A stretch of 59,996 bases of DNA from Gemmatimonadota bacterium (GTDB taxonomy: Bacteria > Gemmatimonadota > Gemmatimonadetes > Longimicrobiales > Gaopeijiaceae): contig JAURER010000018.1 in assembly GCA_030827315.1 (NCBI GenBank), forward strand, positions 1-59,996, given 5' to 3'. The position numbers and the translations under genes were made by a program. The notes below the pieces were generated by a model. The model worked only from the letters and a program-made list of their open reading frames with translations. It was not told the DNA's origin and searched no databases. Shown in pieces: positions 4,833 to 47,140 of the stretch; position 1 is the first letter of the stretch; each line of letters begins with the position of its first letter.

Positions 4833-7746
4833 CGACGGGTTCGCGCTCGGGCAGCCGGTACGCCTCCCGTTCCGGGCGCACCGGACGGAGCATCCACCAC
4901 GGGCGACGCGTCCCGTCGGGCGAGTGTGCGGTCGCCCCGCGGGTCTGCTGGAGCCACTTCTCGTAAACGGCGCGGGATTTGCCGGTGTCCACGAATACGT
5001 CGCCGAACTCATCACCCGGCTGGGCGGGCTTCACCCGCACCGCCTGATGCCAGCAGTGCATCCCCGAGACGGGATCGGGGTGGACCCCGTGCGTCAGGTT
5101 CTGGTGCACGCCCACGTCCGTCCACCACACTCGAAGCGTGTCCGGATCGCTCGACTCGAACGGCCCGCCCCCCTTCTTGCGTCGCAGTCCCCACTGCGTC
5201 CCGTCGCGGTCCAGCGCGACCGTCATCATGCCGAGCCGCTGACCCTGATGGCCCTCTGGCTTCCAACGGCCCATGTGATGGCTGCACGCGAGCACGCCGG
5301 GGCGGATCCCCTCGGTGATCCACGCCTTGAGGACGAAGTGCCCCAGATCTGTCTCGACGCGCACGAGGTCTCCCGTCTTCGCGATCCCGAGCCGGGCCGC
5401 GTCGGCCGGATGGATCCAGAGCGGGTTCGTGTGCGCGATCTCGTCGAGCCACTTCGCGTTCGCGCTGCGCGTGTGGATCTGCACCGGCACGCGGAACGTC
5501 GTGATCAGAGGCATCTGATCGGAGTCCAGGTTCTGCCGGTGGACGTGGCTCTTGATGTACGTCGGCATCGCGAGCTCCGGCCACCCCCAGTCATGGAGCG
5601 TGCGTGACCAGAATTCCAGCTTGCCCGTGGGCGTCGGCCAGCCGCGCACGATCTCCCCGTCCACGCGCACGCCGACCCGGCGACGGCCCTCGGCATCAGG
5701 GTCGATCTTCGTGCCACCCGGCGCCTTGGGACTGGGCGGCAGGGGCGCGCGCGTGAACACCCGCCCATCCGCGTCGATACGGATGTCGTCGAGCTCCACG
5801 TCGGGAACTGGCTGTTCGTAAACCTTTCCGATCTTGCGCGCGACCTCGAAGGCTCCGTAGCGCCGCATGTAGTCGAGCGGCGTCAGCCCTTCCGCGGCGG
5901 CCGCCTGGGGGAGCCCCGGCACCGAATTCTCGAAGATCCACCCGTAGTACTCGTCGACCGTCATCTTCTCGCCTGGATTCTCGACCGACTCGAAGAACTG
6001 CCGGATGCCGAGCGAACCGTCGGGATCGATGCGCCAGGTGAGCTCGATCCAGAACTCGTTTTCCTCCCACACCTCGCCCGGATTCACCAGGCGTGTGTCG
6101 TGCACTGCCTCACCGAGCCGCGTTCGGGCCGCACGGAGCACCGGCTGGCGAAAGCCGATCCACTGCCCGTCGTACTGCTCGTAGGACGTGAGGTCGTGGC
6201 GCTCCGAAGAATGGCCCATGGGAAGTACGTAGTCCGCGAAATACGCCGTCTCGTTCCACGTGGGCGTCATGGCGACGTGCCGTCCGATGCGGTTCTCGTC
6301 CGTCAGCATCTCGATCCAGCTGAAGCCGTCGGGATTCGTCCACACCGGGTTGTAGACGCGCGTGAAGTAGACGTCAACGAAGGCGTCCTGATCCCGCATG
6401 AGATGCGGCATCAGGAATGACATCTCCATGAGCGCGAGCGGGTATCCGTCGGGCCAGAGCACGTCGTTCCACTTCCGTGGATGCTGATGCGGAAGCCGCG
6501 GAGGCTTCGGCACGAACTTGTTCCACGAGTTCGGGAAGAGTCCCCCCTCCGTGGCCAGGGACCCCAGGAGGGCGTTGAGCAGCGTAAGCGTCCGTGCCAC
6601 CTGCCATCCGCCCAGGTTGCCCGATCCCGCACTGCGCCAGTTGTGCGTGGCGAACCGGGTTCCGGCCGAGGCGACCACCTCCGCGACTTCCCGGAGCTTG
6701 CCCGCATCGACACCGGACTCCGCGGCGGCGAAGTCGAAGGTGTAGCTGGCATAGAGGTCGCGCAGGACTTCCTCGAAGCGCTCGAAGGTGGCGCTCGCCT
6801 CGCCGTGGACCTCGGCCATGAACTCCTGCCAGTTCCACCAGCGCCGCACATAGTCGCGGTCGTACCTGCCTTCAGCGATCATCCAGTTCGCGATGGCCAG
6901 GAAAATGGCCGCCTCCGAGCCGGGATAGGGCGCGAGCCAGAAGTCGGCGTGGGTCGACGTGTTGGACAGCCGGGTGTCGAGCACGATCAGTTTCGCGCCC
7001 CGCTTCTTACCCTCGATGATGCGCTGCGCGTGGGGGTTGAAGTAGTGCCCCGTCTCGAGGTGACTGCTCACCAGGAGGATGACGTCGGCGTTCTCGTGGT
7101 CCGGGCTCGGCCGGTCGATCCCCATCCAGTAGTGGTATCCGGCCCGCGCACCGCTCGAGCAGACGTTGGTGTGCGAATTGTGCCCGTCGACCGCCCAGGC
7201 GGCGAGCATGCGCTCGGTATAGCCATCCTCACCAGGGCGCCCCACATGGTACATCACCTGATCGTGACGCTCCTCCTCCATGGCCGTGCGGATGCGCGCG
7301 GCGAGGTCGTCGAGCGCCTCGTCCCAGGAGACCCTCTCCCACTTGCCTTCGCCCCGCTTTCCGGCGCGCTTGAGCGGGTAGAGAATCCGGTCCGGGTCGG
7401 TGATCTGGTTGATGGTGGCCGGGCCCTTGCCGCAGTTGCGCCCGCGCGAGCCGGGATGCTCCGGATTTCCCTCGAACTTGCGGACCTGGAGCGTATCGCG
7501 GTCCACGTACGCCAGGAGCCCGCACGCCGACTCACAGTTGAAGCAGGTCGTGGGCACGAGCATGTACCGCTTTTCCACCCTCTCGGGCCACGACTTCGAG
7601 TCCAGCTCGACCCAGTCGTTCCATCGCTCCTTTGGGGGAAACGCGGCCAGATGGATGCGGCTCGCACCGGGGTAAAACGTCTCGCCGCGGGCCTCCACCT
7701 CGGTCCGTGCGGCCGAAACGCGTCGGTTGAGTTCGTCGAGGGTCAT
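4825..7746 (-). CDS. Molybdopterin oxidoreductase catalytic subunit, DMSO reductase family (SoeA/PsrA-like)
   Basis: Catalytic subunit of a membrane-bound molybdenum enzyme, about 973 aa. Cys68, Cys71, Cys75 and Cys105 form the N-terminal [4Fe-4S] (FS0) site. Cys196 in TNVCSSG is the likely molybdenum ligand. The C-terminal domain contains the molydopterin-dinucleotide-binding segment around HIRTSANAK-like sequence. No twin-arginine signal precedes the FS0 motif, unlike periplasmic PsrA, PhsA or DmsA, so the subunit should stay in the cytoplasm, as described for the sulfite-oxidising SoeABC enzyme. The ATG overlaps the TGA of the FeS/NrfD gene (ATGA, 7743-7746). The downstream SulP gene supports a sulfur oxyanion substrate. 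Thiosulfate, polysulfide, tetrathionate or arsenite enzymes remain alternatives. Confidence 0.85.
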   Translation of the reverse strand: MTLDELNRRVSAARTEVEARGETFYPGASRIHLAAFPPKERWNDWVELDSKSWPERVEKRYMLVPTTCFNCESACGLLAYVDRDTLQVRKFEGNPEHPGSRGRNCGKGPATINQITDPDRILYPLKRAGKRGEGKWERVSWDEALDDLAARIRTAMEEERHDQVMYHVGRPGEDGYTERMLAAWAVDGHNSHTNVCSSGARAGYHYWMGIDRPSPDHENADVILLVSSHLETGHYFNPHAQRIIEGKKRGAKLIVLDTRLSNTSTHADFWLAPYPGSEAAIFLAIANWMIAEGRYDRDYVRRWWNWQEFMAEVHGEASATFERFEEVLRDLYASYTFDFAAAESGVDAGKLREVAEVVASAGTRFATHNWRSAGSGNLGGWQVARTLTLLNALLGSLATEGGLFPNSWNKFVPKPPRLPHQHPRKWNDVLWPDGYPLALMEMSFLMPHLMRDQDAFVDVYFTRVYNPVWTNPDGFSWIEMLTDENRIGRHVAMTPTWNETAYFADYVLPMGHSSERHDLTSYEQYDGQWIGFRQPVLRAARTRLGEAVHDTRLVNPGEVWEENEFWIELTWRIDPDGSLGIRQFFESVENPGEKMTVDEYYGWIFENSVPGLPQAAAAEGLTPLDYMRRYGAFEVARKIGKVYEQPVPDVELDDIRIDADGRVFTRAPLPPSPKAPGGTKIDPDAEGRRRVGVRVDGEIVRGWPTPTGKLEFWSRTLHDWGWPELAMPTYIKSHVHRQNLDSDQMPLITTFRVPVQIHTRSANAKWLDEIAHTNPLWIHPADAARLGIAKTGDLVRVETDLGHFVLKAWITEGIRPGVLACSHHMGRWKPEGHQGQRLGMMTVALDRDGTQWGLRRKKGGGPFESSDPDTLRVWWTDVGVHQNLTHGVHPDPVSGMHCWHQAVRVKPAQPGDEFGDVFVDTGKSRAVYEKWLQQTRGATAHSPDGTRRPWWMLRPVRPEREAYRLPEREPVGA

Positions 7747-39660: not shown

Positions 39661-40683
39661 TCAGTTGCCGAGCTGGAAGGTGAAGAGCAATCGGTGCGCG
39701 AGCTCGTCCTGGAGCGGGACCATCCAGTTCGCCTGAAGGGTGGCCACGCTCGTGGGCCAGGCGTTGAATCCAAGCACGACGTAGTCGTTGGCTTCGCCCT
39801 GACTGGGGTCACGATAGCGATCCCAGCGCGCCAGCAGCTGCGTCCGTACCGTCGTCATCCACCCGGCCGTCAGGTAGTGCCCCAGCGCATTGAAGTCGGC
39901 CCCCACGTCCGGCTGCCACGCGCCCCGGTGGATCTCGCCGTCGAGCATGAGCGGGCCCATCTCCAGGCGCGCGTCGAGGCCCAGCAGCTTCCCCTGGCCC
40001 CGGTACCCGGCTCCACCACCGGTGAGGAACGGCTGGATGGCCTCGTCCTGGCCGAGCGCGCCCTGGACCGCCACCTGGAGCGTGCCCTCGCCGACCTCAA
40101 TCCCTGCCACCTTCACGCGGGCGATCCCGACGAGGGGCTCGCCGTCGCCCTCTGCGATGCGACGCCCGGTGAACACGCCGGATGACCAGGAGAGCGCGTC
40201 CGTGATCTGCCCCCCCAACTGGATCCCCGTCTGGCGGTTGGGCCCGATGTCGTTGATGACGCGCGAACGGAATGCGAAATCCAGGTCCCGGGCGTAGAGA
40301 ATGAACTCCTCGCTGTAGAACGGCTTGAAACGTCCCGCCCAGGCGTAGAAGCGGGGGCTGTGCGTCCACCCCACACGTGCGTCCAGGAGGACGCTGGGCG
40401 CGGCGAAGTTCGTCTGGACGAGGTAACTGAAGCCCCCGTCGAGGTCACCCTCGAGACGAAGGCGCACCTGACTCGCGGTGACCCGGGTCCGGGCCTCCTC
40501 GAGGCCCGCGTCGGCGTTGATGCGTGTGAGGAAGCGCAGCCGCATGGCCGGCTGGCTGAAGACGGACCGAGCCTGCGCGAGGAGGGGCTCCTGGTCCTGC
40601 GCAGCGGCGGACGAGGCTAGGAAGCCGATGCCCGTGGCCGCGATCAGGACGGGGAGGCAGAAGAGCGATCGAGTGCGTGGCAT
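39661..40683 (-). CDS. Porin, phosphate-selective OprO/OprP-like
   Basis: A 340-aa outer-membrane barrel with a signal peptide (SSAAAQ-DQ), alternating amphipathic strands and a terminal hydrophobic strand (HRLLFTFQLGN). The segments FSYLVQTNFAAPSVLLDARVGW and YAWAGRFKPFYSEEFILYARD are typical of the porin O/P superfamily. Specificity for phosphate is not established by the sequence. Confidence 0.8.
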   Translation of the reverse strand: MPRTRSLFCLPVLIAATGIGFLASSAAAQDQEPLLAQARSVFSQPAMRLRFLTRINADAGLEEARTRVTASQVRLRLEGDLDGGFSYLVQTNFAAPSVLLDARVGWTHSPRFYAWAGRFKPFYSEEFILYARDLDFAFRSRVINDIGPNRQTGIQLGGQITDALSWSSGVFTGRRIAEGDGEPLVGIARVKVAGIEVGEGTLQVAVQGALGQDEAIQPFLTGGGAGYRGQGKLLGLDARLEMGPLMLDGEIHRGAWQPDVGADFNALGHYLTAGWMTTVRTQLLARWDRYRDPSQGEANDYVVLGFNAWPTSVATLQANWMVPLQDELAHRLLFTFQLGN

Positions 40684-40864: not shown

Positions 40865-41452
40865 ATGCGCAGAGTCATGTGCGTCGCGCTTCTCGCGGGA
40901 GCGATCGTGACGGGCGCGCCGGTCGACGCCGGTGCTCAGGACGGCGGCCTTTTGGCCGTGGGCGAGATGGCCCCGGACTTCGAGCTCCCCGGAGCGACGA
41001 GGTACGGAGTGCTGGATCAGCCCGTACGCCTGAGCGACTACCGCGGCGAAACGGTCGTCCTCGCGTTCTTCTTCCGCGTCCGAACGCGTGGCTGAACAGT
41101 CCAGATGAGAGCGTACCGTGATCAGTACGCAAGCCTCTTCAACGAAGGACGCAACGTCGTCGTCATGGGCATCTCCAACGACGCGCCCGAGGAGGGCGCG
41201 TCCTGGCTCAAGGACGAGGACTTCCCGTACCTGTTCCTGAGTGACGCCGAGAACAACGGTGCCACGTACACCGCCTTCGGTGGTGGACTCCGGGACAACA
41301 ACATGGTCGACAGCCGGGCCGTGATCGTGGTCGGACCGGACGGTCGCATCGCGCACGTCATCGCGGCGTTCAACCAGAACGATCCGATGGCGTACGAGGA
41401 GCTGGCGGCCGCGGTCGATCGGGTGACGCCGGAGCCGGACGAGGGCGGCTGA
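40865..41452 (+). CDS. Exported peroxiredoxin, probable selenoprotein (in-frame UGA = Sec77)
   Basis: Read through TGA 41093-41095, this is a complete 195-residue peroxiredoxin. A signal peptide (residues 1-26, ending DAGAQ) is followed by APDFELPG and VRLSDYRGETVVLAFFFRVRTRG-[UGA]-TVQMRAYRDQY, then GISNDAPEEG, FLSDAENN and VVGPDGRIAHVI. The UGA is exactly at the peroxidatic Cys of the TxxC motif (FFxxxxTPGCT in PrxQ/BCP). The mature protein has no other Cys, so without Sec77 it would have no redox residue. A hairpin follows at SECIS distance. The product would be a periplasmic 1-Sec peroxiredoxin reducing peroxides. The nearby CcdA/TlpA pair, though separately transcribed, could feed electrons to it. 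Confidence 0.85.
41093..41130 (+). promoter_or_regulatory. Candidate Sec UGA codon and bacterial SECIS hairpin (peroxiredoxin)
   Basis: UGA at 41093-41095 is followed after 15 nt by a perfect 6-bp stem GCGTAC (41111-41116) / GTACGC (41125-41130) around the 8-nt loop CGTGATCA. There are 21 nt between UGA and loop, and a G at loop position 2. A short GAG/CTC lower helix (41107-41109 with 41135-41137) is possible. The loop start CGUG is the same as in the methyltransferase hairpin. Confidence 0.75.
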
Positions 41453-41609: not shown

Positions 41610-42140
41610 TCAGCCTCCCGCCAGCGCCCGCACCGCCGAGACCAGGTCCTGATCGGTGCCGACGCCTGTATAGGCGACCTTCCCCTTGGCATCGAGCATG
41701 ACGACGATCGAGGTGGTGGTGGCGTTGTAGGCGCGCACCGCGGCACCCCGCGCGTCGAACAGATACGGATACCCGGGATCGTGCTCCTCCAGATGCCGCC
41801 GGACGCGTCGCACGCTCTGCGACACGCCCACCGCGACGGCGATCACGCTCACGCGATCACCCCACGTGGCCTGGAGGCGGTCCAACTGGGGCTGGAGCGC
41901 CTCGCACTGTTCGCACCACGTCGCCCAGAACTCGATGACCGCCGGCTTTCCCGGCTCGACGAAGTCGAGGAGTCGCACCGCGTTCCCGTCGAGGTCTTCG
42001 AGCTCCGCGTTCGGGCCCGGCGTGCCGAGTGCCAGCGAGACACCGCCCGACTGAGCCTGCGCACCGAAGGGGAGCAGGACCATGAAAGCCAGCGCGAGGG
42101 CGGCCGCTCTCGCGGCGTGAAGATACGTCCCTTGATTCAT
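41610..42140 (-). CDS. TlpA/ResA-like thioredoxin-fold protein
   Basis: A 176-aa exported thioredoxin-fold protein (signal cleaved near GAQAQ). The active site is WCEQC in EFWATWCEQCEAL, with the cis-Pro region near TTTSIVVMLDAKG. TlpA/ResA proteins keep periplasmic thiols reduced, for instance on apocytochrome c. It starts 17 bases after the CcdA-like gene, with which it forms an operon, so CcdA would be its electron donor. Confidence 0.88.
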   Translation of the reverse strand: MNQGTYLHAARAAALALAFMVLLPFGAQAQSGGVSLALGTPGPNAELEDLDGNAVRLLDFVEPGKPAVIEFWATWCEQCEALQPQLDRLQATWGDRVSVIAVAVGVSQSVRRVRRHLEEHDPGYPYLFDARGAAVRAYNATTTSIVVMLDAKGKVAYTGVGTDQDLVSAVRALAGG

Positions 42141-42157: not shown

Positions 42158-42886
42158 TCAGAGGTTGTAGCCAGCCGTCACGAAGTAGTACTCCGCCATC
42201 GCGATCATGATCACCGCGGCGATGCGCTTCACCCAGACCATCCACCTTCCCGAGCGCGGAAGCAGCGCCAGCGTACCGGAGAAGAGCCCCACGGCAACGA
42301 GAAGCGCCGTCATGCCGAGTGAGAACACGAAGAGGTAGGCGAAACCCATGAGGCCGGCCTGGGTCGCGGCGACCCACGTGAGCACGACGGCGAACGCCGG
42401 CGCCCCGCACGGCGCGGCCACCACCCCCGACATGGCGCCCATGAGGAAGACGGCGCCGTACGAGCCGCCCTCGCTCGAGCTCGCTCGCTCGAGCAGGCGG
42501 CGCGGCACCGGAACCGGAAGCACGTCGAGCATCGTCAGGGCGAAGAGGAGCAGAAGGTTGCCGATCGCGAAGAGCGCCCAGGGGTTCGCACTGACGGTGC
42601 CGAAGAGCTGGCCTGTCAGCCCGGCGATCGCACCCAGCGTGGCGTAGAGCGCGGCCAGACCGACCGCGTACGTGAGGGTGAGACCGACCGTGCGCGACTT
42701 CGGCTGGTCCTCGCGCGCGGTTCCGGCGATGACCGCGCTGGTGATCGGGATCATCGGGTAGACGCACGGGGTGAGGCTCGTGAGCAGGCCGGCCACGAAC
42801 ATCGCACCCAGCGCGAGAAGCGGGCTGCCGGACAGCGCCTCGGCGAGACCGCCGGGAGGTTCGATCTGCAGGAGGGTCAGCGTCAT
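42158..42886 (-). CDS. CcdA/DsbD-type transmembrane thiol electron carrier
   Basis: A 242-aa inner-membrane protein with six hydrophobic helices and the two redox-active Cys of this family: SLTPCVYPMIPIT in the first helix and VAAPCGAPAF in the fourth. It carries reducing equivalents from cytoplasmic thioredoxin to periplasmic thioredoxin-like partners. Transcribed first, then the TlpA-like gene 17 bases later. Confidence 0.9.
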   Translation of the reverse strand: MTLTLLQIEPPGGLAEALSGSPLLALGAMFVAGLLTSLTPCVYPMIPITSAVIAGTAREDQPKSRTVGLTLTYAVGLAALYATLGAIAGLTGQLFGTVSANPWALFAIGNLLLLFALTMLDVLPVPVPRRLLERASSSEGGSYGAVFLMGAMSGVVAAPCGAPAFAVVLTWVAATQAGLMGFAYLFVFSLGMTALLVAVGLFSGTLALLPRSGRWMVWVKRIAAVIMIAMAEYYFVTAGYNL

Positions 42887-46559: not shown

Positions 46560-47140
46560 GACGTGTACCACTCGGGTGCGTTGCCCGGCTTCCACTTGAT
46601 GTTGCAGCCGACGCTGGGCATCTGCTCGGCGTCCGGCGTCCGGCCCCGAAGCAGGGCATCGCACGCCGCACGCAGGTCGGCGCCCGTGACCGGGGCGTCG
46701 AGCGACGGGCGGCTCGAGTCGAACTGGCCGCGGTACACGAGTCGGCGTTCGGCATCGAAGAGGAAGAAGTCGGGCGTGCAGGCCGCCCGGTACGCCTTCA
46801 CGACCTCCTGGGTCTCGTCGAACAGGTACGGGAAGGTGTATCCGCGGAGCCGGACCTCCTCGACCATCCTGTCGGGATGGTCGTCCGGATACTTCGAGAC
46901 GTCGTTGGCGTTGATCGCGACGACGGCGATGCCGCGGGCCTTGTAGTCGCGCGCGAAGTCGGCCAGCCCGGCGGCGATGTGCTGCACGAAGGGACAGTGA
47001 TTGGAGAGCACCATCACGACGACCGCGGGCGCCTCCCGGAAGTCGTCGAGGGATATCGTCCGGCCCGTCGCGGGCTCCGGGAGCGAGAAATCCGGAGCTT
47101 CGGTGCCGAGTGCGAGCATGGTGGACGCGACTTTCACCAC
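46556..47140 (-). CDS. Thioredoxin-fold redoxin with an NHCPFV motif
   Basis: A 194-aa redoxin-domain protein without a signal peptide. The fold start is GTEAPDFSLPEPATGRTISLDDF, then VMVLSNHCPFVQHIAAGL, where the Cys occupies the thioredoxin active-site position without a second Cys in CxxC spacing. ACTPDFFLFDAERRLVYRG follows near the cis-Pro region. This subfamily is widespread and uncharacterised; a peroxiredoxin or thiol reductase role is likely. The start is GTG 47140 (or GTG 47137), behind a GGGAGGG. Confidence 0.82.
   Translation of the reverse strand: MVKVASTMLALGTEAPDFSLPEPATGRTISLDDFREAPAVVVMVLSNHCPFVQHIAAGLADFARDYKARGIAVVAINANDVSKYPDDHPDRMVEEVRLRGYTFPYLFDETQEVVKAYRAACTPDFFLFDAERRLVYRGQFDSSRPSLDAPVTGADLRAACDALLRGRTPDAEQMPSVGCNIKWKPGNAPEWYTS

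Follow-up and report, generated by a model that had tools for sequence, protein, structure and literature searches.

We analysed a 59,996-nt window from the genome of a Gemmatimonadota bacterium (3.07 Mb, 98% complete, 99 contigs), and the gene of interest lies on its forward strand at 40865-41452, just downstream of AGGAGA, a possible Shine-Dalgarno sequence. The frame has a sole internal stop, TGA at 41093-41095 (codon 77, + strand), and runs to its true terminator at 41450-41452 (+), which is likewise TGA and lacks a hairpin. Standard annotation would end the gene at the internal UGA. Read through that codon, it encodes 195 residues with selenocysteine as U77, and the read-through protein matches the Pfam families AhpC-TSA (1.6e-22) and Redoxin (1.8e-16), contains an AhpC/TSA domain (PF00578; 80.1 bits, cut-off 26), and aligns with solved BCP proteins such that codon 77 falls on the catalytic Cys column (TRG-U-TVQ versus T..CT). 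An earlier note on this DNA had placed the only in-frame stop at the peroxidatic Cys, with frame and homology continuing to the natural end, and the PDB alignments and domain matches bear this out. Two separate proteins, one of 76 aa followed by a 115-aa frame from ATG 41105, were considered and rejected. The divergent upstream neighbour, at 39661-40683 (-), encodes a Porin_O_P-like outer-membrane protein that only close relatives keep. Elsewhere in the window are a further AhpC/TSA protein gene with no in-frame stop (46733-47107, -) and, at 5275-7551 (-), a 1252-aa frame that weakly matches a formate dehydrogenase alpha family and is molybdopterin oxidoreductase-like.

The window protein scores 38.2 bits against the PrxU equivalog NF040737 (curated cut-off 270) and 58.2 and 37.5 bits against the BCP/PrxQ thiol peroxidase models NF006960 and NF053650 (cut-offs 140 and 260), in each case well short of the cut-off. 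The nearest folds to its AlphaFold model (pLDDT 89.6) are peroxiredoxins, the best match being Mycobacterium tuberculosis AhpE (Z 23.3, 1.7 Å over 150 residues, 27% identity), with Bcp4 at Z 22.1 and other peroxiredoxins within about 1 Z of AhpE. In the alignment of homologues, the Arg of SRAVIVV never varies and Thr(-3) hardly does. The description of this protein as PrxQ/BCP-type in the earlier note was thus loose: it is a peroxiredoxin, but the BCP, PrxQ, and PrxU cut-offs are far from reached and its fold is nearest to that of the 1-Cys AhpE.

The in-frame TGA is a widely shared character of this gene. When a collection of 84,980 genomes was searched with patterns that left out the TGA codon itself, 71 Gemmatimonadota sequences, counting the window's own, spanned the codon: 70 with TGA and one with TGC. 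Independent assemblies of many genomes share the same TGA, which excludes a sequencing error at 41093. Proteins as distant as about 45% identity still have the TGA form, with the frame unbroken beyond it, and all 22 of the non-TGA copies retrieved carry TGC or TGT precisely at codon 77. Three records named Gammaproteobacteria (L037, L039, and L040) hold this Gemmatimonadota-type gene at 79% identity and are probably misnamed or mixed assemblies.

Absence of the machinery for selenocysteine insertion had been named beforehand as something that would refute a selenoprotein; selA (518.5 bits), selB (344.7 bits), selD (386.6 bits), and a tRNA-Sec with anticodon TCA (68.8 bits) are all present in the genome, each over its cut-off. 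We also surveyed 150 Gemmatimonadota genomes, each at least 90% complete, of which 112 have a strong tRNA-Sec match. The TGA form occurs in about two thirds of the sample (102/150), and 96 of these 102 genomes have a strong tRNA-Sec, versus 2 of the 21 genomes whose only form lacks TGA and carries Cys, the other 19 being without one (Fisher p 3e-15, with relatedness ignored). Among single-contig genomes, tRNA-Sec accompanies the TGA form in 6/6, and a strong match accompanies the Cys-only form in 0/4. Six genomes have the TGA form without a strong match; in two of them the tRNA-Sec match is weak or truncated where a contig ends, and the others are multi-contig assemblies. Together with the features of a Sec peroxiredoxin, namely UGA at the peroxidatic Cys, T at -3 (TRGU), and homologues with Cys at the same codon, this comparative evidence makes it almost certain that UGA-77 is decoded as selenocysteine at the peroxidatic position.

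Following the UGA on the same strand is a hairpin (41111-41130, +; DNA GCGUACCGUGAUCAGUACGC) with a perfect 6-bp stem, GCGUAC/GUACGC, and an 8-nt loop, CGUGAUCA (41117-41124). The stem begins 15 nt past the UGA, where the earlier note had seen it, and the loop 21 nt past it. The bSECIS model specifies a loop of 3-9 nt, a stem of 4-16 bp, a G in the first two loop positions, a distance of 16-37 nt from the UGA, and an energy of at most -7.5 kcal/mol (PMC13188914). The 8-nt loop, 6-bp stem, G at the second loop position, and 21-nt distance all lie within these constraints, and the energy is -8.5 kcal/mol with flanks and -7.0 kcal/mol for the bare 20-mer. By single-strand folding statistics this energy is ordinary for the composition (z 0.15), and covariation is uninformative because the stem shows no variation across Sec genes. 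It is codon-level conservation, not folding energy, that sets the hairpin beyond chance. Across 70 Sec genes, the hairpin codons GCG, TAC, CAG, and TAC are invariant and CGT (68/70) and GAT (69/70) nearly so, although in the rest of these genes CGT and GAT account for just 17-18% of the codons for Arg and Asp; synonymous sites within the hairpin are near frozen, while the flanking codons vary freely.

Of 47 distinct Sec sequences, 44 contain the exact 20-mer; of 22 Cys sequences, none does. Because the hairpin is lost in the Cys forms even though the residues it encodes (AYRDQY and variants) are largely kept, selection acts on the RNA itself. The SECIS reading proposed earlier is thereby strengthened, as is the identity of the residue, since the Cys homologues have their Cys at this very codon. 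In four genomes a hairpin-bearing Sec copy adjoins a Cys copy that has no hairpin; these tandem pairs, all from Gemmatimonadota, are at L142, L147, L150, and L156.

Other selenoprotein genes were seen in the same genome. A second Sec peroxiredoxin (G000:C66:5511-5987; L105) is 58% identical to the first and shares both its TGA and its 20-nt hairpin; the N-terminal SLALGC might act as a lipoprotein signal. Another TGA-containing gene, Prx-like and of the UxxC type (GHWUPYC; G000:C99:25366-25770; L158), has a lipoprotein-like start and lies about 2 kb from selD (G000:C99:22175-23098; L018), which itself has TGA at its catalytic position (GUACK) and a different hairpin past the UGA. The gene for the formate dehydrogenase alpha subunit, FdhA (G000:C41:90811-92811; L169), has its TGA where Sec is usually found (SRA-U-HAP). 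Searching this genome with a covariance model built on the hairpin recovered only the two Prx copies, and thus the hairpins of its other selenoprotein genes differ from this one.

The first 24 codons (40865-40936, +) encode what we read by eye as a signal peptide, MRRVMCVALLAGAIVTGAPVDAGA, with the predicted cut before Q; A24-Q25 at this cut are at least 90% conserved among 43 homologues. On this basis, the protein is very probably sent to the periplasm. Its only other Cys is residue 6, within the signal peptide, so the mature protein is free of further Cys, as previously noted. A further Cys beyond residue 30 was found in 0 of 105 Sec sequences (some of them duplicates) and in 1 of 23 non-TGA sequences, which upholds the description of a 1-Sec enzyme without a resolving Cys. 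With no other Cys in the chain, the oxidised selenol needs a partner to reduce it. Taking these features together, we put the probability that the gene product is an exported Sec peroxiredoxin at roughly 0.9.

A candidate electron donor is encoded next to the gene. At 41610-42140 (-) is an exported TlpA/ResA-like thioredoxin (Pfam Redoxin 5e-17, and Thioredoxin) with the motif WCEQC, followed at 42158-42886 (-) by a DsbD/CcdA-type transmembrane electron transporter (Pfam DsbD_TM 1.8e-46) with the membrane Cys motifs TPCVYP and APCGAP. Among the 68 loci with enough flanking sequence, a TlpA-like gene lies beside the Sec gene in 50, with WCxxC in all, and both genes are nearby in 48, not always arranged alike. 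Outside close relatives, the TlpA/DsbD pair is kept where the M20 peptidase, porin, and PPIase genes no longer adjoin the locus. The pair is present at all three loci of 60-70% identity and at one of eight below 60%, and none was found within the 1.5-kb flanks of the fetched Cys-bearing loci. In the window the TlpA-like gene is convergent with the Sec gene, and such convergence means that the Sec gene and the TlpA/DsbD genes share no transcript, with the possible exception of locus L078, where they are on the same strand. The conserved neighbourhood gives about even odds that the TlpA-like thioredoxin, reduced from the cytoplasm via the neighbouring transporter, is the donor.

The active-site motif itself differs between the two forms. 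At position -7 of PxxxTxxC, Phe stands in 70 of 77 distinct Sec proteins, as it does in the window protein, with Tyr in two and Pro in five, whereas all 22 distinct Cys proteins retain Pro. The PxxxTxxU motif includes this Pro, while the tables of a review define the family by TxxU only (PMC13188914); the missing Pro thus marks a variant of the Sec-Prx (TxxU) family, and membership is not excluded. The tree is weakly supported and has five Sec/Cys and four Pro changes, so few that a sign test has no power to separate a link between Sec and the Pro-to-Phe change from shared phylogeny.

We propose that the hairpin after UGA-77 would recruit SelB with Sec-tRNA, placing selenocysteine at the peroxidatic position, and that the signal peptide would direct the protein to the periplasm. 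There, the selenol would likely reduce peroxides, forming a selenenic acid, and be regenerated by a separate protein or small thiol. If the neighbouring genes supply that partner, electrons would pass from the cytoplasm through the DsbD/CcdA-type transporter to the TlpA-like thioredoxin and on to the oxidised Sec peroxiredoxin.

Several other readings of the locus deserve consideration. A single substitution can turn TGC or TGT into an in-frame TGA, and so a nonsense mutation or sequencing error might have broken an ordinary Cys peroxiredoxin gene. This is hardly credible for a form found in 102 of the 150 genomes and down to about 45% identity with its frame intact beyond the TGA; this form also goes together with tRNA-Sec and a conserved hairpin, and the independent assemblies already refute a broken gene. 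Decoding of UGA as some other residue, by genome-wide reassignment or natural suppression, has a similarly negligible chance of being correct. Several genes of this genome are open in frame with TGA, in line with such decoding, but the gene's own terminator is a TGA without a hairpin, and hence UGA is not recoded genome-wide; the stop codons of 104 Sec homologues are TAG in 67, TGA in 27, and TAA in 10. Furthermore, the genome has tRNA-Sec and SelB, and the non-TGA copies carry Cys at the codon and no other residue.

Granting selenocysteine, two alternatives concern what the enzyme does and how it is recycled. Its reductant may be a small thiol or another periplasmic thioredoxin instead of the neighbouring TlpA/DsbD pair, which is a serious contender, if a slightly less probable one than the neighbouring thioredoxin. 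AhpE is regenerated by mycothiol/mycoredoxin, and the window protein has an AhpE-like fold and no resolving Cys; the TlpA/DsbD genes are convergent with it and are absent from most of the deep-branching loci and from every Cys locus retrieved. Against this, 48 of the 68 loci retain both genes nearby, not always in one arrangement, while other neighbours are lost outside close relatives. It is also conceivable, though unlikely, that the selenoenzyme is mainly a thiol oxidase, a chaperone-like protein, or a peroxide-signalling protein and not a scavenging peroxidase. Many peroxiredoxins double as relays, and most Sec proteins have Phe in the Pro position of PxxxTxxC; the near-invariant Thr(-3), the invariant Arg of SRAVIVV, and the standard peroxiredoxin fold all favour a scavenging peroxidase.

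Sec peroxiredoxins of the TxxU type are a long-known family (PMC1088965, PMC2398784, PMC5029168, PMC13188914). The window protein shares the PF00578 domain and TxxU site with its members, such as Eubacterium acidaminophilum PrxU (PMC13188914, PMC2398784), as well as Sec in place of the peroxidatic Cys, a bacterial SECIS just past the UGA, and Cys homologues. It differs in scoring far under the curated PrxU cut-off (38 versus 270 bits), in its signal peptide, its lack of a resolving Cys, and a near-invariant SECIS sequence of its own, and in having Phe, as most members of this variant do, for the Pro of PxxxTxxU. M. tuberculosis AhpE, a 1-Cys enzyme, is alike in fold and in its single catalytic residue, whereas the window protein has Sec for Cys and a signal peptide; the Z-score of Bcp4 is close. 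The Prx-like UxxC selenoproteins likewise combine an AhpC/TSA domain with Sec, and one is encoded in this genome, but their Sec belongs to a UxxC pair, in contrast to the TxxU site of the window protein, which lacks a second Cys. The ScsB-TlpA-PprX pathway that deals with peroxide in the Caulobacter envelope (Cho et al. 2012, as described in PMC5403849 and PMC9144841) is similar in its exported peroxiredoxin with adjoining genes for a TlpA-like protein and a DsbD-superfamily transporter; here, in contrast, the enzyme has Sec, the transporter is of the short DsbD_TM/CcdA type, and electron transfer is read from gene neighbourhood. By analogy, the TlpA and DsbD neighbours suggest a comparable transmembrane electron supply. 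A search of the open-licence literature found no selenoprotein studies of Gemmatimonadota. Because the protein is far under the PrxU, BCP, and PrxQ cut-offs, exported, and phylum-wide, what is new is an exported, phylum-wide Gemmatimonadota variant of the known Sec peroxiredoxin (TxxU) family.

Aerobic bacteria rarely keep selenoproteins, according to a 2026 review (PMC13188914). The haem-copper oxidase gene in this genome suggests that the organism respires oxygen, yet 112 of the 150 phylum genomes have a strong tRNA-Sec and 102 encode the exported Sec peroxidase. We tentatively suggest that a largely respiring phylum may keep its costly Sec machinery largely to make an exported peroxidase with one selenol, refuelled across the membrane by DsbD and TlpA, with an active site retuned for Sec by the change from Pro to Phe. 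The finding raises the question of how an oxidised selenol is recycled outside the cytoplasm, and the natural Sec/Cys pairs, some of them adjacent in one genome, offer material for asking why selenocysteine persists.
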